A DNA stretch of 12,861 nt from contig JAFGPZ010000025.1 of assembly GCA_016935935.1 (NCBI GenBank), positions 1 to 12,861 on the forward strand, in the 5' to 3' direction. The notes under the pieces were generated by a model. It worked only from the letters and a program-made list of their open reading frames with translations, did no database searches and was not told where the DNA came from. The position numbers were made by a program, and so were the translations under genes. Each line of letters begins with the position of its first letter. Position 1 is the first letter of the stretch. This stretch comes from Deltaproteobacteria bacterium (GTDB lineage: Bacteria; Desulfobacterota; Syntrophia; Syntrophales; UBA2210). Below are positions 1 to 12,861 of this stretch, in pieces.

Positions 1-720
1 CATTTTCATGGCAACCTGCTCAATATGGTAATTAATTCAGGCCCCATGATTCAGTTTGTTCTCTTATTGCTCATCTTCTTTTCCGTAATTTCCTGGGCGA
101 TTATTCTTGTCAAATACAGGGCAATAAGAAGATCGAGGAGAGAGAATGAAATGTTTCTCGATATATACATGCGGAGCAACAAGTTGTCCCTTATTTTTCC
201 TGAGTCTAAAAAATTCAGGCACTCAACGATTGCAGAGGTATTCAGGGCGGGCTACACGGAGTTAGGCAAGATTGCCAGATTAAAAAGAGAAAGTATGCCG
301 GGATCAGAAGTTGCTGAAGATGGTCTATGGTCACTGGAAATGAGGGGCTTGGATAATGTCGAAAGAGCGTTAAACAGGGCCTGTGATTCCGAAGCATCGA
401 AACTGGAGAGTGCGCTCGGGTTCCTGGCCACAACCGGGAGCGCCAGTCCTTTTATCGGTTTGTTCGGCACCGTTTGGGGTATAATGAACGCGTTCAGGGG
501 GATAGGGATCAAGGGTTCAGCAACTCTGGCCGTTGTCGCTCCTGGAATTTCGGAGGCCCTTATAGCGACTGCTGCGGGACTTGCCGCCGCGATTCCTGCC
601 GTTATATTTTACAATTACTATCTCAACAAAATAAAGACAATTTCAGTAGAAACAGACAGTTTCGCATCGGAATTTCTCAATATAGTAGAAAGATATCATG
701 TGAAAAGTATTCAGACATGA
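1..720 (+). CDS. tolQ: TolQ, proton-channel subunit of the Tol-Pal motor (5' end at or beyond window edge)
   Basis: This inner-membrane MotA/TolQ/ExbB-family protein forms, with TolR, the proton channel that energises TolA. The first in-frame ATG is at 25 and gives 231 residues. The frame is open from base 1, there is no Shine-Dalgarno before 25, and the eight codons upstream read like family sequence, so the true start is probably off the window. Numbered from the ATG at 25, membrane segment 1 is about residues 8-29. Segments 2 and 3 are in the glycine/alanine-rich region 130-200, which carries the family signature SPFIGLFGTVWGIMNAF (141-157). T149 and T182 fall where the channel threonines of TolQ/ExbB lie. 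The stop overlaps the tolR start as ATGA. Followed by tolR, tolA, tolB and pal, it is TolQ rather than ExbB. Confidence 0.95.
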   Translation, partial: HFHGNLLNMVINSGPMIQFVLLLLIFFSVISWAIILVKYRAIRRSRRENEMFLDIYMRSNKLSLIFPESKKFRHSTIAEVFRAGYTELGKIARLKRESMPGSEVAEDGLWSLEMRGLDNVERALNRACDSEASKLESALGFLATTGSASPFIGLFGTVWGIMNAFRGIGIKGSATLAVVAPGISEALIATAAGLAAAIPAVIFYNYYLNKIKTISVETDSFASEFLNIVERYHVKSIQT

Positions 721-1136
721 GAAACTCAGGAAGGCGAAGAATCACAGCCAGCAGACCGGTAGCTGAAATCAATGTGACACCCCTGGTTGATGTCATACTG
801 GTGCTTTTGATTATATTCATGGTAACGGCCCCTATGCTGCAGATGGGGATAGATGTCAATCTCCCAAGGGTTAAGGCAAAGACATTAGATGTTGGGGAGG
901 AAAAGCTCATACTTACCATAAACAACGAGCAGGATATTTTTATCAACCGTTACAAGACGTCCATAGATGACTTGAAGATTAAGCTTGAAAACATCTTTGC
1001 AAACAGGATCGACAGGGAACTCTTTATGCGCGCCGATGAAAAGGTGCCCTATGGGTTTGTTGTTAAGGTTATGTCCGAGGTAAGAAAGGCCGGAGTCGAT
1101 AAGCTTGGAATGATTACCGAGCCGCCCAAGGGATAA
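717..1136 (+). CDS. tolR: TolR, proton-channel and peptidoglycan-binding subunit
   Basis: This ExbD/TolR-family protein of 139 residues has a single membrane segment and a periplasmic domain. It works with TolQ to convert proton flow into TolA movement. The start at 717 overlaps the tolQ stop in an ATGA junction, typical of translational coupling. A longer reading of the same frame back to 474 lies inside tolQ and has no family similarity. A basic cytoplasmic leader (residues 1-13) is followed by the signature AEINVTPLVDVILVLLIIFM (16-35). D25 is the conserved membrane aspartate thought to carry protons (D23 in E. coli TolR). The periplasmic part (about 45-139) ends with the typical V-x5-A-G-V-x3-G-hydrophobic pattern. 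Length is normal for the family. Confidence 0.96.
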   Translation: MRNSGRRRITASRPVAEINVTPLVDVILVLLIIFMVTAPMLQMGIDVNLPRVKAKTLDVGEEKLILTINNEQDIFINRYKTSIDDLKIKLENIFANRIDRELFMRADEKVPYGFVVKVMSEVRKAGVDKLGMITEPPKG

Positions 1137-1139
1137 GAT

Positions 1140-1865
1140 ATGGTTTTTTCAAAGCCGGGAAATAGGGTACGCGATGAAGGCCTGAAATTATATAACATGA
1201 TTGTGTTTTCCTTTTTGCTCCACGCCCTTTTACTCTCAATACTGTTCTTTTCCCCCAGCTGGCCAAGCCCGAAATGGACCTTTGGTCCCGTATATACGGT
1301 AGATCTCGTAAGCCCGCCATTAAATTCAGCAAGCAACAAGTCTACGAGCGCCATTTCTGAGCAAGTTGCAGTGAAGAGTTCGAAGGAACATTCAGTCGTT
1401 ATGAAAAAAAATATTGATAAGATATCTTCGGTTCCAATAACGGAAATAAAGACCAGAAAGAGAGAGGTTTCCGATAGCGTTGATCAGGCGATAAAAGGCA
1501 TAAAGCAGAAGGTTTTGTCTGAAACTGAAGAAAAATCCCGTTCAGCTTCATCAACGGGAAATGTTGAGATGAGCATGCGGATGAAGGTGTATTATTCGCT
1601 CATATGGACAAAGATACGGGAGCAATGGGTTCTTCCAAAGGGTATCATCCCTGATGATAGTCTTGAAGCCGTCATCGATGCGAAGATATTGAGTAACGGA
1701 AACCTCGCGGACTGGAGTTTTGAAAAGAATTCGGGTAACAGATACTTTGATGAGTCAGTTGTCAAGGCGATAAAGAAAGCAAGTCCTTTCCCTCCTTTGC
1801 CGGAATGGTTTGATGAAAGCGTTATAGAGATTGGAATAAGGTTTCATTCGTCGGAACTGCAATAG
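1140..1865 (+). CDS. tolA: TolA/TonB-family periplasm-spanning energy transducer, short form
   Basis: This 241-residue protein links the TolQR motor to the outer-membrane side. The ATG at 1140 follows tolR by three bases, and AAGGGA at 1128-1133 inside the end of tolR is a well-spaced ribosome binding site. A single N-terminal membrane helix (about 20-38) contains S24, H28 and L35 in the spacing of the S-x3-H-x6-L motif that TonB and TolA use to contact their motor proteins. A low-complexity Ser/Lys/Glu linker spans about 60-145. The C-terminal TonB/TolA domain (about 150-241) contains IREQWVLP, an I-L-S-N-G-N-L turn and an SPFPPLPEWF motif. The long Ala/Lys/Glu-rich helix of E. coli TolA (about 421 residues) is missing, so the linker is much shorter. 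Operon position favours TolA over TonB. Confidence 0.88.
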   Translation: MVFSKPGNRVRDEGLKLYNMIVFSFLLHALLLSILFFSPSWPSPKWTFGPVYTVDLVSPPLNSASNKSTSAISEQVAVKSSKEHSVVMKKNIDKISSVPITEIKTRKREVSDSVDQAIKGIKQKVLSETEEKSRSASSTGNVEMSMRMKVYYSLIWTKIREQWVLPKGIIPDDSLEAVIDAKILSNGNLADWSFEKNSGNRYFDESVVKAIKKASPFPPLPEWFDESVIEIGIRFHSSELQ

Positions 1866-1910
1866 CCCTGCTTAAAAAAATAGATAAATCAGAGATTGAG
1901 AGATGCCAAG

Positions 1911-3230
1911 ATGCGTAAAATAGTCGGTTTAATTGTGATTGTGCTGATACTCTTAGCGAGTCTTGAAGCGCGGAGTAAGGTATATATCGACATAAACGCC
2001 CCTGGCCTGCAAAAGTATCCTATAGCAATAACCAATTTTAAGAATCTGGGCACTGGGAAAGACGAAAACAATCTTTCCCTGTGGTTTGCCAGCCAGTTGT
2101 CCCACTATCTCAAACTCACGGGATTTTTCAATATAATCGATAGGAGAGCCTTTCTTGAGGATTCTGAACAGTCTGGAATAACTATTGTGGGTATAAATTT
2201 TTCCGACTGGTCGAGCATCGGCGCCGATTTCCTTATTAAAGGCGGTTTTAATAATGATGGGAAGGAATTTTCTTCCGAGTTTCGTATCTTCGATGTGGTA
2301 GAGGGAAAGTTGATAGTTGGGAAGAGGTATGAGGACAGGTATGATAAGAGAAATATAATGGTCCTTAAATTTGTCAACGAGATTCTCCTTGCCTTGACTG
2401 GAGAAAAGGGTGTTTTTGACACGAAGATTGCCTTCGCGGCAAAAGACGGAGACTCATCTGAAATATATACCATCGATTTTGACGGGACAAATCTGGTCAA
2501 AAAAACAAAACTCGAGTCGCTTACCATGTTACCCCGATGGTCTCCCGATGGGAACAACATTTTTTTTACTTCTTATTTAAATGGCAATCCTGATTCATAT
2601 ATTATGAATCTTACCACAAACAAGGTCATTGAGATGACCAGTTACAGGGGTCTAAATCTGGCCTCTTCATGGTCTCCCGATGGAAATAAAGTGCTGCTGG
2701 TTCTAAGCAAGGATGGAAATGAAGAAATCTATGTGAAGGATATCAAAAAAAACACTCTTCAGCGTCTGACAAACAATCCTTCCATTGATGTATCTCCCAG
2801 CTGGTCTCCCGATGGTAAAATGATTGCCTTTGTATCCAACCGGTCAGGTTCTCCTCAGATATTCACTATGGATTCAGACGGGAAGGGCGTAACGAGATTG
2901 ACCTATGAAGGTTCCTATAATACTTCTCCCGACTGGTCGCCAGCGGGCAGGAGGATAGCCTATGAAGGCTCTTCCAAGGGACGGTTTCAGATATTTTCCA
3001 TCGATGAGGATGGCAGCAATTTTATGCAGTTGACCTTCGAAGAGGGAGGAGGAGAATCTCCTTCATGGTCTCCCGGAGGGATGTATCTCACTTTTATTTC
3101 GAGAATTGCCGGCAAAAAAAAGGTTTGCATAATAAATTCAAATGGATTAAACTTGCGCGTATTAGGAGCGCCGGGAGGGTCATATTCACTGGATAGCCCT
3201 TCTTGGTCCCCCCACTTGAATTTGTATTAA
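1911..3230 (+). CDS. tolB: TolB, periplasmic beta-propeller of the Tol-Pal system
   Basis: TolB is a periplasmic protein that binds Pal and signals to TolA. I chose the ATG at 1911 (439 residues) because it opens directly into a signal peptide: MRK, a hydrophobic core at 4-15, and a likely cleavage after SLEA (17-20). A TTG at 1896 would only add five residues (MRDAK) before it. GAGAG lies about 8-10 bases upstream of 1911. The N-terminal domain (about 21-160) has the NFKNLG and SQLSHYLKLTGFF patterns of TolB. The propeller shows six W-S-P repeats starting at residues 210, 254, 298, 342, 386 and 432. Spacing is exactly 44 for the first four intervals and 46 for the last. The last repeats deviate (SPAG, SPGG, SPHL). 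It lies 45 bases after tolA. Confidence 0.96.
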   Translation: MRKIVGLIVIVLILLASLEARSKVYIDINAPGLQKYPIAITNFKNLGTGKDENNLSLWFASQLSHYLKLTGFFNIIDRRAFLEDSEQSGITIVGINFSDWSSIGADFLIKGGFNNDGKEFSSEFRIFDVVEGKLIVGKRYEDRYDKRNIMVLKFVNEILLALTGEKGVFDTKIAFAAKDGDSSEIYTIDFDGTNLVKKTKLESLTMLPRWSPDGNNIFFTSYLNGNPDSYIMNLTTNKVIEMTSYRGLNLASSWSPDGNKVLLVLSKDGNEEIYVKDIKKNTLQRLTNNPSIDVSPSWSPDGKMIAFVSNRSGSPQIFTMDSDGKGVTRLTYEGSYNTSPDWSPAGRRIAYEGSSKGRFQIFSIDEDGSNFMQLTFEEGGGESPSWSPGGMYLTFISRIAGKKKVCIINSNGLNLRVLGAPGGSYSLDSPSWSPHLNLY

Positions 3231-3249
3231 CGTGGGTGCTATATTTTGT

Positions 3250-3277
3250 TTGACAATCCAAAGGTATCCATTAAAAT
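3250..3277 (+). promoter_or_regulatory. Possible internal sigma70-like promoter ahead of pal
   Basis: TTGACA at 3250-3255 is a perfect -35 hexamer. After 16 bases comes TAAAAT (3272-3277), five of six matches to TATAAT. It lies in the 65-base gap between tolB and pal and could give extra pal transcription. Against it, the start point would fall near 3284, inside the pal Shine-Dalgarno, leaving a leader of only about 12 bases. Confidence 0.3.
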
Positions 3278-3280
3278 TTT

Positions 3281-3288
3281 AAAGGAGG
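3281..3288 (+). promoter_or_regulatory. Near-perfect Shine-Dalgarno for pal
   Basis: AAAGGAGG, seven bases before the pal ATG at 3296. An ATG at 3291 is followed at once by TAA and is only two bases from the Shine-Dalgarno, so 3296 is the real start. The strength of this site fits the high copy number known for Pal lipoproteins. Confidence 0.8.
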
Positions 3289-3295
3289 ATATGTA

Positions 3296-3889
3296 ATGAA
3301 GAGAAATGTATGGATTATCGGTTCATTGACAATTATTTGCAGTTTTATGTTCATTTTTGCATCCGGATGCGCAAAGACTCCCGTAGTGAAGGAAGAGGTT
3401 GCTCTTAAGGAGGCTGAATCTGTCATTTCTACTGCTAAAACTGCTCCTGTGGAAGTGGCTCCCAAGGAAGAAGTCAAGAAGGCAGTTGAAGACACGGGCA
3501 TGAAAGAAAAGCAACTGTGGGAGCAATTACTTGCTCAGGCAGCTGAGTTCAAAAATAAGGACATTAATTTTGCCTTCGACCGCTATGATCTTAATGCCGA
3601 TGCCCGGCAGAAACTGGAGAGACTTGCTGACTGGTTACTTGCGCATAGTGAATTTGAAGTGACGATTGAAGGACACTGTGATGAGAGAGGCACAACGGAG
3701 TACAACCTGGCTCTCGGGGAAAGGCGTGCGGAGGCTGCCAAGGCCTATATCGTCAATCTCGGCGTGGATGTTAATAGAATATCAACAATCAGTTATGGTG
3801 AAGAACTGCCACTGGATCCACGTTCTAACGAAGAAGCCTGGGCAAAAAACAGGAGAGATCATTTTCTCGTATATCCCTCTAAGAAATAA
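3296..3889 (+). CDS. pal: Pal, peptidoglycan-associated outer-membrane lipoprotein
   Basis: This 197-residue lipoprotein anchors the outer membrane to peptidoglycan and is the target of TolB and TolA. A signal peptide (basic MKRN, hydrophobic 5-22) ends in the lipobox FASGC with the acylated Cys at 25. Residue +2 is Ala, so by the E. coli rule it is not retained in the inner membrane. A Glu/Lys/Ala/Val linker (26-75) leads to the OmpA C-terminal domain (about 88-194). That domain carries INFAFDRYDL (90-99), GHCDERGT (126-133), NLALGERRA (137-145) and NRR (185-187), the diaminopimelate-binding signature of this family. Length and linker are normal for Pal. It is in the tol operon between tolB and the cpoB-like gene. 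Confidence 0.97.
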   Translation: MKRNVWIIGSLTIICSFMFIFASGCAKTPVVKEEVALKEAESVISTAKTAPVEVAPKEEVKKAVEDTGMKEKQLWEQLLAQAAEFKNKDINFAFDRYDLNADARQKLERLADWLLAHSEFEVTIEGHCDERGTTEYNLALGERRAEAAKAYIVNLGVDVNRISTISYGEELPLDPRSNEEAWAKNRRDHFLVYPSKK

Positions 3890-3906
3890 TTAGGAGTCAG
3901 ACCCGC

Positions 3907-4779
3907 TTGAAAAGATTCTTTAGTCTCTTAATTATATTGCTTTTAGTATGTGTGTGGGGATGTGCGACCAGGGAAGACCTGGATCGATTCTATCTGACCC
4001 TTAATCAAAAGGTCAGTGACAATGCAGATAATTTGTCGAGAGTAAAAAGTGATTTTGAGCGTTTTAAGGAAGAAAGCTCTTTAAACTTTTCTCAAATTCA
4101 GGAATCGGTTTCGAAGAATGGAGAGTTCAATAAAGCAATACGGAAGAGTCAGGCAGATTTTGGAGAAAATCTCAATAATCTGAGATCAGATATTCAGGAT
4201 CTGAGAGGAGCCGTAGAGGAAATGAAGGTGAGCGCGGATGCTCTCAAAACGAAAACTGAGAGTGGCAACGCCAAAGATATTGATATTAAAATTAAGGAAA
4301 TTTCAACAAGACTTGGTTACATCGAGACCTATCTGGAGATAGAAAAGAAAGAGTCTGTTACAAAAGATGCAGCAGAGACTGCTGCAATCTCTCCTTCGGA
4401 ACAGGTTGACAAGGAGGAGGCCTATTCGGAGGCCTATAATGCCTTTAAAAATGGTAAATATGGCAGAGCAAGAGCGGAATTTCAGAAATTTCTGAAGGTC
4501 TTTCCAAGCTCGGAATATTCCGATAACGCTCAGTACTGGATCGGAGAGTGTTACTACCTTGAGGGTGCCTATGAAAAGGCTATTCTTGAATACGAGAAAG
4601 TGATCAAGAACTACCCGGAAGGCAATAAGGTTCCTAATTCCATTTTAAAACAGGCCTTTTCCTTTCTGAAGATTGGGGATCAGTCAAGCGCGAAGTTGCT
4701 GTTACAGAGGGTCATCAAAGACTATCCCGGCACGACGCCCGCAAGCATAGCAAGACAACGGCTGGTCGATATAAAATAG
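3907..4779 (+). CDS. cpoB: CpoB/YbgF-like TPR lipoprotein of the Tol-Pal operon
   Basis: CpoB couples Tol-Pal activity to peptidoglycan synthesis at the septum in E. coli. This 290-residue version starts with TTG at 3907. AGGAG at 3892-3896 lies ten bases upstream, and the resulting MKRFF leads straight into the signal sequence. Unlike the soluble E. coli protein it has a lipobox (VWGC, Cys19, Ala at +2), so it should be membrane anchored. Residues 20-145 are rich in Asp/Glu/Lys/Ser with heptad-like spacing, the expected N-terminal coiled coil. Residues about 170-290 hold three TPR-like units (EAYSEAYNAFKNGKYGRARA, then the units around 208-240 and 245-277), matching the C-terminal YbgF domain. 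It is the last gene before the 4783-4830 terminator. Confidence 0.9.
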   Translation: MKRFFSLLIILLLVCVWGCATREDLDRFYLTLNQKVSDNADNLSRVKSDFERFKEESSLNFSQIQESVSKNGEFNKAIRKSQADFGENLNNLRSDIQDLRGAVEEMKVSADALKTKTESGNAKDIDIKIKEISTRLGYIETYLEIEKKESVTKDAAETAAISPSEQVDKEEAYSEAYNAFKNGKYGRARAEFQKFLKVFPSSEYSDNAQYWIGECYYLEGAYEKAILEYEKVIKNYPEGNKVPNSILKQAFSFLKIGDQSSAKLLLQRVIKDYPGTTPASIARQRLVDIK

Positions 4780-4782
4780 AAT

Positions 4783-4830
4783 AGCTGACGGTAAGTAATT
4801 GACGTATTCGACCGTCAGCTGTTTTTTATT
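4783..4830 (+). terminator. Rho-independent terminator of the tol-pal operon, possibly bidirectional
   Basis: A perfect 10-bp stem, AGCTGACGGT (4783-4792) with ACCGTCAGCT (4811-4820), encloses an 18-base loop and is followed by GTTTTTTATTT. It starts three bases after the cpoB stop. Read on the minus strand the same stem is followed by the weaker T-rich ATTCTATTTTAT, so it may also stop transcription from the converging operon, whose last gene ends at 4886. Confidence 0.88.
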
Positions 4831-4885
4831 TACAGATTTTCAGTTCAGTCAATTGAAGCCTTGAGTTGTGTTGGTTGCTTGCTCT

Positions 4886-5731
4886 TCAATTCAGAAATAC
4901 GGGTTGCAACCCGCCAGGAACAGGTAAATCAAAGGCGTCAGTGTCAACTTCCTTCGAAATTTCAAGGTCGGTATATTTTATTGTTACGTCTATCTTTTCC
5001 ATCCCCTTCATGGAGATCCTCACTCTTTGAGGATACGCCCTCTTCCCAAGTAAAATAAAATCATCAAAGAGAGCATTATAGCTGCTGTAGCCGTCTTTTC
5101 CAAGAACTTCGGCTTTTATCAGAGAGTTGTCAGCAGCATCAATCCAGAGAGATTGAATATGCACATCGCCGGATAGAATATCTATGCGATCATGACGATT
5201 TCCATCGCTGTATCCCCCCGTGACATGGAGTTTATCTGTTATAGAAATGGGAGGCATCCCCATTAGAAGAGATACCATCTGATATGTGGGAATTGGTATC
5301 CTGAAAAAGCGCTCAAGATTTTCCTTTGTCGGTTTGCCTGCATAATACACGCCTTCCCCGGGTAGGAATACTTTAATAAAACTTTCGTTCACCGACATGA
5401 AAAAATCCGATGGGCCAAAAAGAGGGATAGCATCTACTCGTAAAGAAAAAGGCCTTTGTGCCAAAATGGCTACTTTTCTCGTGTATTTACCGCCGGGGTG
5501 ATCTATGTTTATATGTGCCATCGCCTTTAGCAGGGACTCCTGCCCTGAATCCATTGCAAGGCGGGACAACAGATACTGAACCCTATCGTGTGGAAGGGGG
5601 TGTCTTTCTGTCACTGGTATGCTTTTCCATTCTGCGCATCCCCAAAGGGAAAGAATATATAATAGAATCAGCGCAGAGAATTTCAATGCCTTAATCGGTG
5701 ATTCATCCCGTTCAAACAGTGAAAAGTACAT
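4886..5731 (-). CDS. LolB-like outer-membrane lipoprotein
   Basis: This 281-residue lipoprotein ends its operon. The ATG at 5731 abuts the TAA of the TPR gene (TAAATG). GGAG a few bases upstream, inside that gene, supports it. The signal peptide is long (hydrophobic about 18-30) with lipobox LWGC at Cys32. A TTG at 5686 would give a neater leader (MKFSALIL) but has a poor ribosome binding site. The mature part resembles LolB/DUF4292 proteins: a strand-rich core around 84-130, then GKPTKENLERFFRIPIP (132-148) and LLMGMPP (155-161). This parallels the K-L-T-G-M-P-I-P and I-L-G-L-P segments of E. coli LolB. LolB accepts lipoproteins from LolA and inserts them in the outer membrane. P. aeruginosa lolB also follows a TPR lipoprotein gene. 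Fold assignment is likely; the LolB function is inferred. Confidence 0.72.
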   Translation of the reverse strand: MYFSLFERDESPIKALKFSALILLYILSLWGCAEWKSIPVTERHPLPHDRVQYLLSRLAMDSGQESLLKAMAHINIDHPGGKYTRKVAILAQRPFSLRVDAIPLFGPSDFFMSVNESFIKVFLPGEGVYYAGKPTKENLERFFRIPIPTYQMVSLLMGMPPISITDKLHVTGGYSDGNRHDRIDILSGDVHIQSLWIDAADNSLIKAEVLGKDGYSSYNALFDDFILLGKRAYPQRVRISMKGMEKIDVTIKYTDLEISKEVDTDAFDLPVPGGLQPVFLN

Positions 5732-7441
5732 TTAGTCTCCGCTCAACTGATTGATTTTTTCTTGCAGGGTCTCTTTGCTGAGTTGTTTGAGATCAAGCGC
5801 CTTCAGATACATTTTCTTTGCCGCTGTGTCCATGCCCGCCTTTCTGTAGGCATCGCCAAGGTGTTCCGCTATGGTGGGATCATCGGGAAGCATTTCCGAA
5901 GCCTTTTCAAGATATTTTATGGCAAGATCGATCCTGCCAGTCTTGAAATATAACCAACCCAGGCTGTCTGTTATGAAACCATTGTCCGGTTTCAGCTCAA
6001 GAGCCTTCTTTATTAGTCTTTCGGCTTCATCAAGTTTTATGCCCCTGTCTGCGTATCCATATCCTATGAAATTGAGTGCTTCCGCATTATTCTTGTCTAT
6101 TTTCAGAAGTTTTTTCATTTCTATAACACTTTCGCTGAAACGATCCGTCTTCTCGTAAATGACGGCCAATTTATAGCGGAGATCGATGTCGTCGGGGAAA
6201 ACTTTAATAGCCTCTATCAGTGTATTTTCCGCCAAGTCGATCTGATTGTCTGCATCATAGAGTGATGCGAGGAGACCATAGAGGTCGGCCTCTCCTTCTT
6301 TGCCGGCAACTGCTCCCCTTATCAGTTCTATTGCCTCTTTACTGCGACCAGCATCTTTCAAAATCAGGGCCATGTGAGTGAGCGCACTCGGATAAAGCTT
6401 CGAATTCTGTGATACGGTTTTAAATTCATTAAAAGCCTCCATGTGCTGCCCATTTTTGTCGTAGGACGAGGCAAGGAAATACCGAGTACGGTTGTCATCC
6501 GGAAATTTACTTAAAACAAGCAGGAATTCTTCAATAGCCTTGTTGTAGTCCTTGCCCTCAAAGAAATAGGCAAGGCCGAGAGAATATCTTGCTTCCATAT
6601 GTGAGGCGTTCTCATCCAGTATTTTGCTGAATTCCCTTGCTGCATCTTTGTATTTTTCCTGTCTTAACATTATCTTTCCAAGGTGAAGTCGCGCTGTTGC
6701 TGCGGAAGGGTTGCGTCGTACAAAGTCGCTGAAGAATTCCAGGGCGTCTTCCTCTTTTCTCTGGACTTCATAAAGCATGGCCAGATCTGTTATGGCTGAT
6801 TCGAAGGACGGGTTTATGGCCAGAGACTTTTTAAAAGACTTTTCAGCTTTATCGTATGACGCCATATCCATGTATATCTTGGCAATGTAGTAGTTCCCCA
6901 TCAGATTATCGGGATCGATGTTCAGAAGGCTGTTCAGTGCGCCCACAGCTTTTTCGTATTCGCTGGTTTCCCTGTATAGAAGGCCCAGAAAAAGGTATGA
7001 TTCAAGGTTATTGCTATCCAGCTTTATTACCTTTTTATAGGACTCTAAGGCATTGTCGTATTCTTTCAGTCTGCTGTATACAGCTCCCAGCAAGAGGTGC
7101 GTGTCAGCGTAATCGGGGTCGTGAATTAGAGACTGCTTCAATAGCTGTAACGCGCTAGTTATATTATTTTTTCTCATATACAGCGTTGCCAGTTGTGTCA
7201 TCAGATAAGAAGAGCCTGGGTCAAGGGAAAGTGCCTTCTCGTATTCCTTTATTGAATTGTCGAGATTTCCGCGCAGATCTGCCTTTACTCCCAGAGAATA
7301 ATGATAGTAGGCGTCAGAGTATTCGACTTTACCGTACGCAGAAGGCTCAGGCACGGTCGGTTTTGAGCTTTCTCTGCCCATGTGAGTGCAAGCGACAGTA
7401 GAAACAAGAAACATGATTATGATAATCCGTATAAGTTTCAT
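5732..7441 (-). CDS. TPR-repeat outer-membrane lipoprotein, LbcA-like candidate adaptor of CtpA
   Basis: This 569-residue lipoprotein has signal residues 1-17 and lipobox TVAC with Cys18 (Thr at +2). After a short Ser/Pro linker, fifteen TPR units of 33-35 residues tile residues about 41-558 almost without gaps, for example YSLGVKADLRGNLDNSIKEY and HLGDAYRKAGMDTAAKKMYL. The TPR superhelix should be a protein-binding surface in the periplasm. Two context points suggest a role. It is co-encoded with a CtpA-type protease, and it sits directly upstream of a LolB-like gene, as does P. aeruginosa PA4667 (LbcA), the TPR lipoprotein that binds and activates CtpA. The LbcA assignment is an inference from architecture and context. 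A general assembly or secretion TPR protein is the alternative. The start is 25 bases after yibQ, with GGAAG about ten bases upstream. Confidence 0.85.
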   Translation of the reverse strand: MKLIRIIIIMFLVSTVACTHMGRESSKPTVPEPSAYGKVEYSDAYYHYSLGVKADLRGNLDNSIKEYEKALSLDPGSSYLMTQLATLYMRKNNITSALQLLKQSLIHDPDYADTHLLLGAVYSRLKEYDNALESYKKVIKLDSNNLESYLFLGLLYRETSEYEKAVGALNSLLNIDPDNLMGNYYIAKIYMDMASYDKAEKSFKKSLAINPSFESAITDLAMLYEVQRKEEDALEFFSDFVRRNPSAATARLHLGKIMLRQEKYKDAAREFSKILDENASHMEARYSLGLAYFFEGKDYNKAIEEFLLVLSKFPDDNRTRYFLASSYDKNGQHMEAFNEFKTVSQNSKLYPSALTHMALILKDAGRSKEAIELIRGAVAGKEGEADLYGLLASLYDADNQIDLAENTLIEAIKVFPDDIDLRYKLAVIYEKTDRFSESVIEMKKLLKIDKNNAEALNFIGYGYADRGIKLDEAERLIKKALELKPDNGFITDSLGWLYFKTGRIDLAIKYLEKASEMLPDDPTIAEHLGDAYRKAGMDTAAKKMYLKALDLKQLSKETLQEKINQLSGD

Positions 7442-7466
7442 GGTGTTATAACTTCCGCAGCGTAAT

Positions 7467-8300
7467 TCAGGATATCTGCTTGACTAAGACAGACAGGGGA
7501 ACAATATCGATTCCTTTCGACTGGAACAGAGGTATTGTCTCCCTCACAGCCTTGAGTGTGCTCTCATAGGGATGCCCAATAACGATCAAGGTATGCCATT
7601 GCTCCCGTTTTTTTATAAGATCAGCCAGTATCTTGAAAGTGTCTCTATACTGACCGCTGTTGTCTATAAAGACATCTCTTGATGCGTATACTAGGCCTAC
7701 CTTTTTTGCAACCGCTCTTCCCATCGAATTGCTGGTCGTATAACTATCGACGAAAAAGAGGTTCTTCCTCTTCAACTCTTTGAAAACGATAGTCAATTTT
7801 TCTTCACTTTCCATAAAGAGAGACCCCATATGGTTGTTTGCACCCAGTATCCCCGGGAGGGTATCAATATGCTCTTCAAGAGTAACAATTATCTCTTCCT
7901 TCGTCATGCCAGTTAACAACGCTCCTTTGCCAGGATTCTTTTTTGGGTATCCATGGGGTTCCATGGGAAGATGAAGAATGGTTTCCAACCCATTGAGCGC
8001 CGCTTTTTCAACAGCTTCTCTGGAATAGGGGCAATTGGGAAGTATGGAAAATGTGACAGGAATGCCCATCTGTACAATACTCCGTATAGGCGCAGTATCA
8101 TAACCGATATCATCAATGATGATGGCTATCATGTTACTTCTTGTTTTTTGTGTGACATAACTAGCCGGTTTCAAAGAACTTTTATGAGGCTTCTCTTCCT
8201 GTGTCAGGATGGAGATGGGAACTGGCGTAAGCAGCAGAAAGAGGATACCGAGACATATGATAATTCTTTGAGTGATTAGAGAATGCTTCCGCTTCTTCAC
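7467..8300 (-). CDS. yibQ: YibQ-type divergent polysaccharide deacetylase, exported or membrane-anchored
   Basis: This 277-residue protein belongs to the divergent polysaccharide deacetylase family (DUF610/YibQ, NodB-like barrel). It starts with GTG at 8300, 13 bases after ctpA, with GAGGA nine bases upstream. A basic leader and hydrophobic segment (about 12-33) target it to the periplasm. Visible family motifs are AIIIDDIGYD (59-68) with the paired aspartates D63-D64, LHLPMEP (109-115), GANNHMGS (153-160), FFVDSYTT (182-189) and IGHPYEST (241-248). The conserved Asp and His residues fit a metal-dependent hydrolase site, but the substrate is unknown for the family; peptidoglycan or another envelope glycan is usual speculation. 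Adjacency to a ctpA-type protease is a recurring arrangement in proteobacteria. Confidence 0.9.
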   Translation of the reverse strand: MKKRKHSLITQRIIICLGILFLLLTPVPISILTQEEKPHKSSLKPASYVTQKTRSNMIAIIIDDIGYDTAPIRSIVQMGIPVTFSILPNCPYSREAVEKAALNGLETILHLPMEPHGYPKKNPGKGALLTGMTKEEIIVTLEEHIDTLPGILGANNHMGSLFMESEEKLTIVFKELKRKNLFFVDSYTTSNSMGRAVAKKVGLVYASRDVFIDNSGQYRDTFKILADLIKKREQWHTLIVIGHPYESTLKAVRETIPLFQSKGIDIVPLSVLVKQIS

Positions 8301-8313
8301 CTCTTACATTCCT

Positions 8314-9618
8314 CTATCTCTTATTCATTCGGGAGAATATTTCCCAACTTTTCAATATGTCTATGGCACGGCTCAACTGGTTGTCATCTGTTAAATCATC
8401 AGGTTTCCTTTCCGGCTTTTTCGCTTCTTCCGTTTCTTTATCCCCCTCAATATGTCCCTTGAGATCACTTTCTCTGATCTGCTTCGGCCGCTCTTTGTTC
8501 CCATCGGGACTTGCATATTCAATCTCGATATCGGGACTGATGCCTTTAGCTTGAATCAATCTTCCGCTGGGTGTATAATATTTTCCAGTTGTCAATTTCA
8601 GGGCGGCGCCGTTGTTTAAGGGAATTATTACCTGCATGGATGCCTTCCCGAAGGTCTGTGTTCCCAGCAGCAGTGCCCTCTCGTTATCCTGAAGTGCTCC
8701 CGACACTATTTCTGATGCACTCGCGCTCGCTCCATTTATTAACACGATTATTGGGCATTCAGGTTCATCTCCGTCATTTTTTGCAGTGTAGACTGTCCCA
8801 GATTTCTTAGCTCTTCCCTTTGTAGAAACAATCACTCCCGATTTCAGAAATGCGTCCGAGACCTTTATGGACTGTTCCAGAACACCACCGGGATTGTTTC
8901 TCAGGTCGAGGATAAGTCCCTTGAGAGGGACAACTTCTTTGATTAAGGAATTCAACGCTTTATTGAGTTCCGTGGTCGTCGTTTCCTGGAAGTTCGATAT
9001 TCTCAAGTATCCAATATTGTCATGATAGACTTTGTGCTTTACGCTCTTGATCTCGATAACAGCCCGCGTGATTATGAAATCTTTGGGCTTGTCCAGACCT
9101 TTTCGCCTGATTGTAATGGTTACCTCTGTTCCAGCCTTGCCTCTCAGTTTATGAACGGCATCTTCAAGGGTTAACCCCTTGATTGTTTTTCCGTCTATGC
9201 CGATAATCTGGTCCCCAGATTTGATTCCAGCTGTAAATGCCGGCGTGTCTTCAATAGGCGATACTACAGTAACAACCTCATTGACCATGGTAATTTCTAT
9301 ACCCAAGCCGCCGAAGGCCCCCTTCGTATTGATCCTCAATTCCTTGTATGTCTCTGCCGACATATAAGCGCTGTGAGGATCCAGAGTTTTTATCATACCC
9401 GTGATTGCGCCGTCTATTATGACGCCAGGGTCGACCTCTTCAACGTAGTTAGTTTCTATAAGATCAAGGATTTCATTGAACAGCTTCAAATTTTTATAGG
9501 TATCATTCCCAGCTGAAAAAGCAGACTTGTCCTCATAAAATCCAGGCAATATCAGCAGGGTTATAAATAGGATGATAATAAAAGAAAAGACACCTTTTTT
9601 GATAAATGTGGTCCTCAT
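8314..9618 (-). CDS. ctpA: S41 carboxyl-terminal processing protease, CtpA type
   Basis: This periplasmic serine protease of 434 residues cleaves proteins near their C termini. A hydrophobic segment (about 9-27) followed by AFSA at 33-36 may be a signal peptide or anchor. The order is N-terminal helical part (40-95), PDZ domain (about 98-175, starting GAFGGLGIEI), then the S41 core with LDLRNNPGG (237-245), NGASASASEIVSGAL (295-309) and GTQTFGKASMQ (319-329). By alignment with Prc and P. aeruginosa CtpA the catalytic pair is S300 and K325 (25 apart, as in those enzymes), with Q329 nearby. A charged linker (about 370-412) leads to a C-terminal helix, the region used for oligomerisation in CtpA. 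The start at 9618 has GGAGG five bases upstream. All key residues are present. It is the first gene of the operon. Confidence 0.94.
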   Translation of the reverse strand: MRTTFIKKGVFSFIIILFITLLILPGFYEDKSAFSAGNDTYKNLKLFNEILDLIETNYVEEVDPGVIIDGAITGMIKTLDPHSAYMSAETYKELRINTKGAFGGLGIEITMVNEVVTVVSPIEDTPAFTAGIKSGDQIIGIDGKTIKGLTLEDAVHKLRGKAGTEVTITIRRKGLDKPKDFIITRAVIEIKSVKHKVYHDNIGYLRISNFQETTTTELNKALNSLIKEVVPLKGLILDLRNNPGGVLEQSIKVSDAFLKSGVIVSTKGRAKKSGTVYTAKNDGDEPECPIIVLINGASASASEIVSGALQDNERALLLGTQTFGKASMQVIIPLNNGAALKLTTGKYYTPSGRLIQAKGISPDIEIEYASPDGNKERPKQIRESDLKGHIEGDKETEEAKKPERKPDDLTDDNQLSRAIDILKSWEIFSRMNKR

Positions 9619-9627
9619 GTGGTCCTC
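9606..9627 (-). repeat. Exact 11-bp tandem duplication across the ctpA start
   Basis: On the minus strand GAGGACCACAT occurs twice head to tail. The upstream copy (9627-9617) supplies most of the Shine-Dalgarno and the first two bases of the ATG. The downstream copy (9616-9606) supplies the G of the ATG and codons 2-4. Perfect short tandem repeats like this can change copy number by slippage. Confidence 0.85.
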
Positions 9628-9628
9628 C
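9624..9628 (-). promoter_or_regulatory. Shine-Dalgarno of ctpA
   Basis: GGAGG on the minus strand, five bases before the ATG at 9618. It fixes the ctpA start and overlaps the 11-bp tandem repeat. Confidence 0.75.
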
Positions 9629-9652
9629 GCTCAGATGCGTTAATATTGAAGA

Positions 9653-9687
9653 AGCATAACACTTTTCGTGCAGTGATTTCCATCACT
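9653..9687 (-). promoter_or_regulatory. Candidate ctpA operon promoter with Crp/Fnr-type dyad
   Basis: On the minus strand an extended -10, TGT followed by TATGCT (9658-9653), lies 18 bases downstream of a -35-like TGGAAA (9682-9677). Overlapping the -35 is the dyad AGTGAT-TTCC-ATCACT (9672-9687). It fits both the Crp core GTGA-N6-TCAC and the Fnr-like TGAT-N4-ATCA. A further AAAGTGA at 9703-9709 can pair imperfectly with TCACTTTTTAC (9683-9693). The rest of the 193-base gap between patatin and ctpA shows nothing else definite. The dyad is visible in the sequence; promoter and regulator are inferred. Confidence 0.4.
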
Positions 9688-9811
9688 TTTTACAGGTATC
9701 GTAAAGTGAGGGTCTGTTTCGTTCTCTGAGAGGCCTTGCTGGAACCGAGAATGATGTATCAAGAATAGTTTTTTATAGGGCGCGTATTTTTCAGGGGAGC
9801 GTGAAAAATTG

Positions 9812-10723
9812 TCACTTGAAGAAATTCCTGACCCGCGCGTAGAACGAAGACGAGAGCACCTTTTTGATCGATTCTATGCTGTCCCTGGTTGCTCTTTCAC
9901 CTTCGTATATCAAATCCTTTGCATGCAGGTAATCAGACCAGTCAAGACTGCCGACGCGAGGTCGTATGACGATATCTGCTTCCTTGAGAGCATGATTCAT
10001 AAGGTGATAGGACATTATATCTGCCGCCCTGCTGTAGACAGAAAGGGCGGTTTGAAAATCCTCCCGAAAGATAATATCCTGCGCCACAGTAACTGCAATT
10101 ACAATGTGGGCACCCGCTTCCCGGGCTGCATGGATTGGGACGGAAGATACGATTCCGCCATCGGAGAGGATCCGTTCACCGCTTTTCATCGGTTCTATCG
10201 CGCCGGGAACGGCGCAGCTTGCAATAACAGCCTGGCGCAATGATCCCTCGGAAAAGACTATCTCTTCTCCGCTCATGAGATCTGTGGCGACTGGTCTGAA
10301 TGGGATAGATGTGTCCTCGATGTTAATATCAGGAATGAAATGATTAATCATTACTTCAAAATTTTCAATAGAAACTATACCGGGTTTGAACATCATCTGT
10401 ACGAGGTAAAAGCGGTTTTTCAGGTACTGCTGGACTTTTCTGGTGATTCCGATGTCTTCTTTGCTCTGGGCTTCCGATATGGCCCGCATTGCCGATGATT
10501 GAAATTCATCGCTGCTCAGATATTCGTCCACAATCTCTATGAGTTTTTGCGGTTCCGTACCGCCGGCATAGGCTCCGCCGATAAGCGCTCCCACACTGGT
10601 TCCGGTAATGATATCAACGGGAATCGATTCTTCTTCCAATACTTTCAGTACGCCTATATGTGCAAAACCCCGGGCGCCTCCTCCCCCAAGGGTGAGGGCG
10701 ACGGGCTTCTTCTTATGTTTCAT
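9812..10723 (-). CDS. Patatin-like phospholipase family protein, RssA type
   Basis: This cytoplasmic-looking 303-residue hydrolase has no signal peptide. It has the full patatin signature: the oxyanion-hole loop GGGGARG (13-19), the nucleophile elbow GTSVG (41-45) with Ser43, and DGG (188-190) with Asp188 completing the Ser-Asp dyad. Additional family marks are FRPVATDL (142-149) and ASCAVPGAIEP (168-178). The family hydrolyses acyl esters of lipids; the real substrate of RssA-type proteins is not settled. Length is normal for this subgroup. The ATG at 10723 is preceded two codons upstream by an in-frame TAG, so no longer start is possible. The Shine-Dalgarno is weak. It lies 85 bases downstream of the flavoredoxin-like gene on the same strand and may be co-transcribed with it. 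Confidence 0.92.
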   Translation of the reverse strand: MKHKKKPVALTLGGGGARGFAHIGVLKVLEEESIPVDIITGTSVGALIGGAYAGGTEPQKLIEIVDEYLSSDEFQSSAMRAISEAQSKEDIGITRKVQQYLKNRFYLVQMMFKPGIVSIENFEVMINHFIPDINIEDTSIPFRPVATDLMSGEEIVFSEGSLRQAVIASCAVPGAIEPMKSGERILSDGGIVSSVPIHAAREAGAHIVIAVTVAQDIIFREDFQTALSVYSRAADIMSYHLMNHALKEADIVIRPRVGSLDWSDYLHAKDLIYEGERATRDSIESIKKVLSSSFYARVRNFFK

Positions 10724-10808
10724 AATCTACAAGTCATCAAAGCCTTTTGAAATGATAATGCTTTTCATCTTTAAGAAAATTGAAAATTGGAAGTCCCCAT
10801 GACTTTGA

Positions 10809-11381
10809 TTATTTTATGAGTTCTCTTCCCGTTGAAAATGCCTTTCCCAGGCAGTTGCCGAAACCAAAATATTCTCCATGCCCAGGTTCGTATATAAGAG
10901 GCCTCATCTTACTGACATCAGGAAGCCCTCTTTCATCCAGATATTCTTCATCAACCGTTATATCGATTATTTCACCCGTGAACTGTGTGTGCAATCCTAT
11001 CTCAAAGGTTTGTATAACCCTGCACTCGAGGATAAGTGGGAACTCCTTTACGTATGGCGCGTCAACCTTATCGCTTTTTACCGGTGTCAGTCCTGTGACG
11101 GCAAACTTGTCCGCCTTACTTCCCGATTCGATACCGCAATAGTCTGCCTCCCTCATGTGATGGTCGCCGGGTATGCTTATGGTATAGGCCATCTTTTCCA
11201 TAATGTTGCCATATGTATGTGTGGCCTTTCTGAGAGATATGGTAACGCAGGGCGGTACGGAGCAGCATATTCCTCCCCAGGCGACAGTCATGATGTTTGG
11301 CTTGCCTAGGGAATCATAGGTGCCCACTACAAAAACAGGCGTGGGGTATGCAAGTGTCTTGGCTCCTATCGATTTTTTCAT
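10809..11381 (-). CDS. Flavoredoxin-like FMN-binding flavin reductase domain protein
   Basis: This 190-residue cytoplasmic protein is of the flavin reductase-like FMN-binding family, in the subgroup called flavoredoxin in sulfate reducers. I chose the ATG at 11381 because GAGGAGG lies six bases upstream; the ATG at 11396 would add five residues without a good site. Family features are PTPVFVVGTYD (13-23), NIMTVAWGGICCSVPPCVTI (29-48), SLRKATHTYGNI (49-60), the phosphate/flavin-binding region of this group, and YFGFGNCLGKAF (171-182) near the C terminus. C39, C40, C45 and C177 are notable but are not a known metal motif. Such proteins bind FMN and transfer electrons in anaerobes, and partners vary. 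It stands behind its own strong promoter. Confidence 0.88.
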   Translation of the reverse strand: MKKSIGAKTLAYPTPVFVVGTYDSLGKPNIMTVAWGGICCSVPPCVTISLRKATHTYGNIMEKMAYTISIPGDHHMREADYCGIESGSKADKFAVTGLTPVKSDKVDAPYVKEFPLILECRVIQTFEIGLHTQFTGEIIDITVDEEYLDERGLPDVSKMRPLIYEPGHGEYFGFGNCLGKAFSTGRELIK

Positions 11382-11387
11382 GATTAA

Positions 11388-11394
11388 CCTCCTC
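11388..11394 (-). promoter_or_regulatory. Shine-Dalgarno deciding the flavoredoxin start
   Basis: GAGGAGG on the minus strand with a six-base spacer to the ATG at 11381. This rules in favour of the shorter reading over the ATG at 11396. Confidence 0.8.
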
Positions 11395-11413
11395 ATGTAA
11401 TCGTATGAAAGTC

Positions 11414-11442
11414 ATTCTATGATGGACTCTACAAAATGTCAA
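11414..11442 (-). promoter_or_regulatory. Near-consensus sigma70 promoter of the flavoredoxin-like gene
   Basis: On the minus strand the -35 is TTGACA (11442-11437, perfect), the spacer is 17 bases, and the -10 is TAGAAT (11419-11414, five of six). The start point would fall near 11407, leaving a leader of about 25 bases with the Shine-Dalgarno. No operator-like dyad is obvious, so expression may be constitutive. Confidence 0.75.
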
Positions 11443-11540
11443 ATACCTGTCTTTTGATTGCTGGCGATACTTTATTTAATGGATGCGTCAGAAAACAATC
11501 CACGTAGTTTATCGCTCTTCACACCAAAATTTGAAAAACT

Positions 11541-11569
11541 TTGACTTTCTGATCAGGATACAATATAGA
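11541..11569 (+). promoter_or_regulatory. Candidate sigma70 promoter of the polyprenyl synthase gene
   Basis: TTGACT (11541-11546), 17-base spacer, TATAGA (11564-11569). The start point would be near 11576, with a leader of about 38 bases. The 232-base region 11382-11613 also holds the divergent flavoredoxin promoter; I see no small gene in the remainder. Confidence 0.45.
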
Positions 11570-11583
11570 TATCAACTCACACT

Positions 11584-11595
11584 GACCGGACGGTC
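11584..11595 (+). promoter_or_regulatory. Small dyad GACCG-GA-CGGTC in the polyprenyl synthase leader
   Basis: A perfect 5+5 inverted repeat with a two-base centre lies just downstream of the proposed start point and 18 bases before the ATG at 11614. It has the shape of an operator half-site pair of TetR-like type. A repeat this short could be chance. Confidence 0.25.
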
Positions 11596-11613
11596 TATGC
11601 CATTTATACGGAA

Positions 11614-12612
11614 ATGCAGTCAGAAGAACGGGAACATGTTATGCAGATACAGGATATTTTCCACCGCTATGAAAAAGACCTCGACATGGTGGAAAAATTC
11701 ATAGAGGAACAACACCGGTCTTATGTAGACCTGATTCCTGAGATAACGGGCTATATAATAAACAGCGGCGGGAAGAGGTTGCGGCCACTCTTGCTGATGA
11801 TATCTTCGGACCTTTGTGGCTATAAAGGTGACAGGCGTTACGCGATGGCCGCGATTCTTGAATTCATTCATACCGCATCGCTCCTTCATGACGATGTGGT
11901 GGATCGCGCGACAATAAGACGTGGCAGACTGTCGGCAAACAGCGTGTGGGGTAATTCCGCGGCCGTTCTGGTGGGCGATTATCTCTATTCAAAGGCCTTC
12001 AAGGTGCTTGCCGAGGATGAAGACCCTGCCATACAGAAACTTCTTGCGATAACGACCACGACCATGAGCGAAGGGGAGATCATACAACTGGTTAAGATGG
12101 GTCAAATTAATACCAGCGAAAAGGAATACCTTTCTGTCATAGAAAAGAAGACGGCAATACTAATCTCGGCAGCCTGCGCAGTAGGCGCCCTGCTGGCAAA
12201 GAAGTCGGAGACAGAGGTCGAGGCGTTGACGAGATTCGGAATGAGACTGGGTATGGCCTATCAGCTGACCGATGATTCCCTCGACTATGTCGCCGAAGAG
12301 GAATTTGGCAAGACAATAGGGATGGACATCAGAGAAGGTAAGACAACACTTCCTCTCATAAGGACATTGAAAAAGTGTTCCACTGCCGAAAAGGAGTTGA
12401 TCAGGAGGGCAATGGTAAACAAGGACATCAAGGAGAATGAAATCACTGAGATCGTTTCTCTAATCGACCGGTACAGAGGCATAGAATACGCCATGGATAA
12501 GGCGAAGGAGTATATCGGCGAGGCAAAGAAATTTATCGACTCTTTTGAAGATACCATGCCGAAAAAGGTTCTTTTGGCGATTTCGGAGTATATCATTGAA
12601 AGGAAATTGTAA
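11614..12612 (+). CDS. ispB: Long-chain trans-polyprenyl diphosphate synthase (IspB/octaprenyl type)
   Basis: This enzyme condenses isopentenyl diphosphate units into the side chain of respiratory quinones in the cytoplasm. The 332-residue reading has all family motifs: SGGKRLRP (51-58), the first Asp-rich motif DDVVD (93-97), GDYLYSKAF (121-129), KKT (178-180) and the second Asp-rich motif TDDSLDY (219-225). The residue five before the first aspartate is Ala88. A small residue there is associated with long products, whereas aromatic residues stop chains at C15-C20. Exact chain length cannot be read from this. The start is uncertain: ATG at 11614 or at 11641 (MQIQDIFHRYEKDL, closer to typical homologs); neither has a strong Shine-Dalgarno. 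It is transcribed away from the flavoredoxin gene. Confidence 0.93.
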   Translation: MQSEEREHVMQIQDIFHRYEKDLDMVEKFIEEQHRSYVDLIPEITGYIINSGGKRLRPLLLMISSDLCGYKGDRRYAMAAILEFIHTASLLHDDVVDRATIRRGRLSANSVWGNSAAVLVGDYLYSKAFKVLAEDEDPAIQKLLAITTTTMSEGEIIQLVKMGQINTSEKEYLSVIEKKTAILISAACAVGALLAKKSETEVEALTRFGMRLGMAYQLTDDSLDYVAEEEFGKTIGMDIREGKTTLPLIRTLKKCSTAEKELIRRAMVNKDIKENEITEIVSLIDRYRGIEYAMDKAKEYIGEAKKFIDSFEDTMPKKVLLAISEYIIERKL

Positions 12613-12699
12613 GGCAGGAATCGGTCAACTCGGAACAACTCTCCTGATTTTACCAACGCACATCCTGTGTTCAATACTGCTCAAATTTGAAATAAAAAC

Positions 12700-12731
12700 A
12701 GGGCCGGACACCGATGGCCGCGGCCCTTTTT
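12700..12731 (+). terminator. Probable bidirectional terminator after the polyprenyl synthase gene
   Basis: The stem AGGGCCG (12700-12706) pairs with CGGCCCT (12721-12727) around a 14-base loop and is followed by TTTTT. On the minus strand the same stem is followed by G-TTTTT-ATTT, so it can serve the minus-strand gene entering from the right as well. The 87 bases between the stop at 12612 and the hairpin show nothing recognisable. Confidence 0.8.
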
Positions 12732-12769
12732 ATGGAAAGAGAGGGCTGTCGCCGGAGTTAGAGAAAAAC

Positions 12770-12861
12770 TCAGTGCGGTGACTGTTGTCCATAGAATATA
12801 CCAGTCGCTCCTTCGCCGTTTGTTTTATACATGCCCCAGGCGCCCCCAATGGCCTGAGCCG
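12770..12861 (-). CDS. 3' end of an unidentified minus-strand gene entering from the right
   Basis: Reading the minus strand from the right edge, one frame is open for 29 residues to a TGA at 12772-12770. The residues (AIGGAWGMYKTNGEGATGIF, then YGQQSPH) are glycine- and aromatic-rich and look like real protein, perhaps a beta-rich secreted or surface repeat. The stop lies about 40 bases before a terminator that works in this direction. I do not recognise the family, and the call rests on composition and context only. Confidence 0.45.
   Translation of the reverse strand, partial: AQAIGGAWGMYKTNGEGATGIFYGQQSPH

Follow-up and report, generated by a model that had tools for sequence, protein, structure and literature searches.

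Among the closest described counterparts of the locus treated here is the LbcA-CtpA system of Pseudomonas aeruginosa, in which the tetratricopeptide repeat (TPR) lipoprotein LbcA (PA4667) is a demonstrated activator of the protease CtpA (PMC6050968, PMC11021448). The two partners are encoded in different places, lbcA in an lbcA-lolB-ipk neighborhood (PMC6050968) and ctpA in an envC-ctpA-PA5135 neighborhood, PA5135 being a yibQ gene (PMC12569750). The NlpI-Prc pair of Escherichia coli likewise uses an outer-membrane TPR lipoprotein as the adaptor of a periplasmic C-terminal processing protease (CTP), although that CTP is of another subfamily and its TPR protein is non-homologous and much smaller (PMC11021448). 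We analyzed a 12,861-nucleotide stretch from a Deltaproteobacteria bacterium of the Syntrophales (assembly GCA_016935935.1, contig JAFGPZ010000025.1, positions 1 to 12,861), called the window throughout, in which genes of both Pseudomonas neighborhoods lie together. The initial annotation of the window had pointed to those two separate neighborhoods, which the papers cited above bear out, and to four genes on the minus strand separated by 13, 25, and 0 bases, which matched the coordinates of the open reading frames (ORFs):

8314..9618, minus strand: S41 C-terminal processing protease of the CtpA type (434 aa, with a PDZ domain; H82, S300, K325, Q329; trans-interacting-loop motif RESDL at 382-386)
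7467..8300, minus strand: YibQ/SddA-type peptidoglycan deacetylase (277 aa; GTG start; PF04748)
5732..7441, minus strand: LbcA-type TPR lipoprotein (569 aa; ~15 TPRs; lipobox Cys18)
4886..5731, minus strand: LolB-like lipoprotein (281 aa; Cys32; F105 in the protruding loop)

We read these genes as one envelope-remodeling operon built from (envC-)ctpA-yibQ and lbcA-lolB, with the TPR protein presenting hydrolases to the protease, and give this reading a probability of roughly 65%. The kind of system is known; what is new, and well supported as a genomic prediction, is the presence of both partner genes in one operon. The likeness to LbcA-CtpA consists of a CtpA-type protease with conserved catalytic and trans-interacting loop (TIL) residues, a TPR lipoprotein that shares the C-terminal signature of LbcA, and an lbcA gene followed by lolB. 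With envC-ctpA-PA5135 the window shares the succession of ctp and yibQ, but it has no M23/EnvC gene in front and has lbcA-lolB behind. As annotated initially, no M23 peptidase was found in the window: the domain was absent from all 13 proteins scanned with Pfam, overlapping other ORFs being outside that scan. We met no description of a ctp-yibQ-TPR-lolB operon in the open-licence literature searched.

By analogy with LbcA, the TPR protein is probably the adaptor of the protease. The four genes would be co-transcribed and the TPR and LolB-like proteins would become lipidated; the TPR superhelix at the outer membrane would then hold the soluble CtpA-type protease, activate it, and present peptidoglycan hydrolases to it for degradation, like LbcA in P. 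aeruginosa, and the SddA-type deacetylase would work on denuded septal glycan. Such an operon would tie lipoprotein insertion by the LolB-like protein to hydrolase turnover and glycan deacetylation. The LbcA-CtpA literature that we met concerns P. aeruginosa, and a conserved single operon elsewhere makes the adaptor idea directly testable.

Kinship of the four proteins

The first product contained Peptidase_S41, PDZ, and CtpB_N-like domains (Pfam), and its S300, K325, and Q329 aligned with S302, K327, and Q331 of P. aeruginosa CtpA, so the residues and domains of the complete S41 protease proposed initially were present. Its closest PDB match by sequence was P. aeruginosa CtpA itself (7rpq, E 2.5e-109). 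Features of CtpA (CTP-3, S41A) found in the window protease were the Ser-Lys dyad, the PDZ domain, and the N-terminal dimerization region (NDR). When CtpA was aligned with 56 distinct ctp ORFs taken from the retrieved loci (CtpA numbering), H84, S302, K327, Q331, and E385 were identical in 56/56 and L388 in 54/56; E385 and L388 belong to the TIL, which is absent from CtpB. In the NDR, hydrophobic residues filled the contact positions L46, F49, and L53 throughout, bar one Thr, and A50, K57, and D66 were mostly different. The TIL motif was considered as an LbcA-specific mark and rejected, since PDB entry 9jr1, another CTP, which we take to be H. pylori CtpA, carries it too. According to the title of a 2025 paper, H. 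pylori CtpA is self-contained (PMC12749690).

The second product matched PF04748 (2e-69) and contained all four Asp-Asp-His-His metal-ligand motifs of SddA/YibQ. Judged by eye from these motifs, D63, D64, H110, and H157 are its probable metal ligands, the E. coli SddA ligands being D31/D32/H78/H123 (PMC11870482). It is set apart from E. coli SddA by its gene linkage, which is with ctp and TPR genes rather than with envC.

The third gene had been annotated as encoding a 15-TPR lipoprotein, and its AlphaFold model (predicted local distance difference test, pLDDT, 94.9) agreed, with 31 helices past the signal helix making up ~15 TPR hairpins and a cap. The lipobox Cys18 was conserved in at least 90% of 102 aligned TPR sequences. 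In a PDB sequence search, LbcA led the natural proteins with 122.6 bits, OGT followed with 121.8, and a designed TPR protein scored much higher than either; profile A1 of the TPR family gave 225 bits for LbcA (34-567 vs. 11-541) and 228 for OGT. Fold and PDB searches were therefore set aside as proof of kinship, being too unspecific, and were replaced by signature and best-hit tests. Nine columns were invariant in the 102 aligned proteins (N457, G460, A480, P485, D492, S493, W496, A514, and H527), and LbcA, read by eye, carries the identical residue at all nine; the C-terminal signature common to LbcA and the window protein is N..GY..AD / DS.GW / H. A loose pattern drawn from these columns was applied to three partly overlapping locus sets. 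It occurred in 77/82, 35/38, and 25/29 high-scoring TPR ORFs (137/149 in total; three of the twelve misses were gene pieces) and in 0/21, 0/34, and 0/9 low-scoring ones (0/64). Among 120 listed homologs, a strict pattern fitted 109, as well as LbcA, and the loose pattern 117. P. aeruginosa LbcA was also used as the query in ten cluster-bearing genomes, eight from the order sample described below plus G002 and G010 (loci L001 and L020). The cluster TPR gene came first in all ten with 98.9-150.1 bits, and any other gene scored at most 69.9 bits. The initial annotation had raised the question of whether the TPR protein might be nearer to an unrelated family; the best-hit test with LbcA as query and the signature speak for LbcA, and in the PDB sequence search the lead of LbcA over OGT is slim.

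The fourth protein has a LolA/LolB-superfamily fold, a lipobox, and a hydrophobic residue at the loop tip, in common with E. coli LolB and the Bacteroidota LolB/LolB1 (9tpm = DUF4292; F. johnsoniae LolB1). Its F105 aligned to Leu68 of E. coli LolB, and F, I, W, L, or M stood there in 56 of 63 aligned proteins. Unlike these known proteins, it stayed under curated LolB cut-offs, with no Pfam match and LolB1_Flavo at 8e-5, under the model cut-off; we therefore name it LolB-like, not LolB, and the LolB-like lipoprotein annotated initially holds at that level. LolA-superfamily structures (3bk5, 3buu, and LolA3) matched about equally. VIA gave 19.1 for LolB 9tpm, 18.1 for 3bk5, 17.3 each for LolB 1iwm and 4z48, 17.1 for LolA3, 15.2 for 3buu, and at most 14.0 for other LolA. 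Foldseek ranked 3buu and LolA3 above both LolB structures, and by sequence profile A4 scored 3bk5, 3buu, and LolA3 above LolB. The standard LolB model, PF03550, matched 7 of the 63 aligned LolB-like proteins at E <= 0.01 and found LolB in 0/10 tested genomes, for which the cluster gene offers a concrete LolB candidate; LolA was present in 9/10 genomes tested. The idea that LolB in delta-proteobacteria was unreported was dropped, as a 2015 review places LolB homologs in beta-, gamma-, and delta-Proteobacteria (PMC4623201), unlike a passage of PMC13103446 that limits LolB to beta and gamma. Mutants of F. johnsoniae were not complemented by LolA/LolB of E. coli (PMC11885536). In locus L171 (6715-7463) the LolB-like gene is in two pieces, possibly through a frame break.

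Gene order within and beyond the order

The order sample comprised 50 genomes from the same order as G001, the genome with locus L006 (titled Syntrophus sp.); this order is taken as Syntrophales, and 80% completeness was requested. YibQ was found in 40 of these at 44 places, four of which were second copies off the cluster (L089, L101, L120, and L127) that scored lower with a cluster-trained profile. Conservation of the gene order had been proposed as a check, and ctp-yibQ-TPR-lolB was kept on one strand in 32 of the 40 YibQ-bearing genomes; because of this recurrence, we regard the operon as more than chance. Within the 32, one gene was split in two pieces in each of two genomes (TPR in G026, yibQ in G054). 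The other eight comprised five clusters cut by contig ends (three stop after yibQ, one starts at yibQ, and one stops within the TPR gene), two without lolB (G013, G033), and one with ctp on the opposite strand (G039).

The ten genomes without YibQ contained the TPR gene in six cases (1e-60) and an S41 gene in six. Wherever both were present (G027, G031, G049, G053, and G058), ctp directly adjoined the TPR gene, with gaps, judged by ORFs, of 21, -8, 14, -1, and 55 bp, two of them overlaps. A lolB match followed the TPR gene in all five, that of G053 being in two pieces. Locus L013, also without yibQ, likewise had ctp and TPR adjacent. G019 had no S41 match, and its TPR gene lay at the end of a contig; G018, G037, and G057, which may be incomplete, had neither a TPR nor an S41 match.

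Beyond the order, a TPR-anchored set was made of the 80 loci most like the query (the best 80 of 574 confirmed matches). Model-free clustering placed 53 of the first-downstream ORFs (window included) in one family and 4 in a second. Using a LolB-like profile built on an alignment that takes in 50 of these ORFs, with matches accepted down to 25 bits, we found a LolB-like gene within 400 bp behind TPR in 61 of the 79 loci that had room for it (window included). ispE lay directly behind TPR in 10/79, and ctp lay upstream in 19 of 65 loci with room (window included). A LolB-anchored search found TPR upstream in 29/30 loci, 25 by the distance rule. The ten ispE loci have Nitrospirota-type titles (L024, L026, L029, L031, L033, L034, L036, L042, L043, and L063) and contained prs in 9/10 and rplY (L25) with pth in 8/10; examples were checked with Pfam. 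lolB did not stand between TPR and ispE in them, and was not looked for elsewhere in those genomes. In E. coli, lolB is followed by ispE-prs; the LolB-like gene of the window differs in having no ispE behind it.

We also examined 15 hand-chosen genomes outside the cluster, six from the TPR-anchored loci and nine from the phylum sample. The main ctp was followed by yibQ in 7/15. It lay on a separate contig from TPR/lolB in 9/15 and on the same contig, at least ~64 kb apart, in five (G004, G073, G088, G110, and G113); in G009, no ctp was present within the 13-kb TPR locus L062. Separation was judged from coordinates, the ctp flanks (~0.9 kb upstream, 1.2 kb downstream) being too short. An M23 domain was found in the gene ahead of ctp in 8 of the 9 tested. 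The ten cluster-bearing genomes all had M23 genes, two to five each, on the cluster's contig only in G045 and there >300 kb off. As ctp outside the cluster is separate, with an M23 gene ahead in most cases tested, we read the cluster as a split of envC-ctp-yibQ in which ctp-yibQ was placed before lbcA-lolB. The (envC-)ctpA-yibQ and lbcA-lolB operons thus appear to have been recombined into one, and the merger of the two Pseudomonas neighborhoods suggested initially gains support from the conserved order, the LbcA kinship, and the separate ctp outside the cluster.

Weighing the readings

The single operon predicts, without proving, cooperation of protease and TPR protein in this bacterial group, and several observations weigh against it. 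Genome G043 contains a ctp-like ORF of 500 bits, not below the 457 bits of the TPR-linked ctp of G031, which is followed by a different ORF; the genome contains no TPR gene at 1e-60 and is a case against strict ctp-TPR coupling. Sequence and fold comparisons with the PDB discriminate poorly among TPR proteins, OGT tying with LbcA by sequence and outranking it by Z. Our reading is weakened because of G043 and this near-tie. The TIL and the NDR hydrophobics are unspecific too, the NDR also serving dimerization. At the docking end, helix H1 of LbcA inserts between two NDR helices of CtpA (PMC11021448), and H1, or the N-terminal adaptor, is required for binding (PMC8764530, PMC11021448). This adaptor was unrecognizable in the TPR family: the N-terminal profile (residues 38-160) gave 5.6 bits against the N-terminal part of LbcA, with shuffles reaching up to 6.8, and the C-terminal profile gave 103.6 bits against the C-terminal part of LbcA. 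Aligned by eye, the key LbcA contact L57 corresponds to Ser in the window protein, and LbcA L61 to Lys. LbcA has 11 TPRs and a non-TPR extension, whereas the AlphaFold model of the window protein has ordinary TPR hairpins at its N-terminal end. By these comparisons, conservation seems to cover the C-terminal superhelix but not the docking end; mainly for this reason, the same mechanism as in LbcA-CtpA is not claimed in detail. The operon may offer a second version of the LbcA-CtpA type with a different docking end.

A broader account, which we advance tentatively and hold somewhat short of even odds, is that the genes for an LbcA-type TPR protein and for a divergent LolB make up an old pair across Desulfobacterota (lbcA-ispE-prs-rplY-pth in Nitrospirota), fused with ctp-yibQ in one order, and that docking would proceed via four extra TPRs, not an adaptor helix. 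If the pair is that old, LbcA-CtpA hydrolase control would predate Pseudomonadota. This account is weakened because the fourth protein matches LolB and LolA-like structures about equally well.

The true partner of the TPR protein could also be the LolB-like protein, in lipoprotein sorting or outer-membrane assembly, with ctp-yibQ placed ahead without a physical link. We consider this unlikely, at about one chance in five, even though TPR-lolB linkage is much wider than TPR-ctp linkage, TPR precedes most LolB-anchored genes, ctp is not near the pair of TPR and lolB in the 15 outside-cluster genomes, and the adaptor segment is unrecognizable. The direct contact of ctp and TPR genes in the five YibQ-less genomes argues for the protease as partner, as does the TPR protein being the best match of LbcA, a demonstrated CtpA activator (PMC6050968, PMC11021448); ispE, moreover, directly follows TPR in the ten Nitrospirota-type loci, with lolB not looked for elsewhere there. 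Least probable, and improbable in our judgment, is a co-regulated envelope cluster without a complex, in which the protease is self-contained and the TPR protein has another role: the TIL motif in the chain presumed to be H. pylori CtpA and the ctp-like gene of G043 fit it, and co-location alone does not demonstrate interaction, but the ctp-TPR neighbors in genomes without yibQ and the LbcA kinship by best match speak against it.

Surroundings of the cluster

On the plus strand and convergent with the four genes, tolQ-tolR-tolA-like-tolB-pal-ybgF occupied positions 25-4779, encoding TolQ, TolR, a TonB/TolA-like protein, TolB, an OmpA-domain Pal, and then YbgF. In the order sample, a convergent ybgF followed the cluster in 33/40 copies. 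A promoter scan of the window gave 18 sigma-70-like sites against 9.1 expected, the majority within genes; the single site ahead of ctp (9815-9786) was weak (9/12) and was not used as support. A patatin-like (RssA-type) gene and a flavin reductase gene (9812-11396) lay upstream of ctp on its strand; in 9 of the 80 TPR-anchored loci, cysS was found upstream of ctp instead. A sigma-70 family gene stood directly upstream of TPR in 17 loci (L038, L050, L054, and others), many of them titled Desulfobacterales/Desulfobacteraceae.

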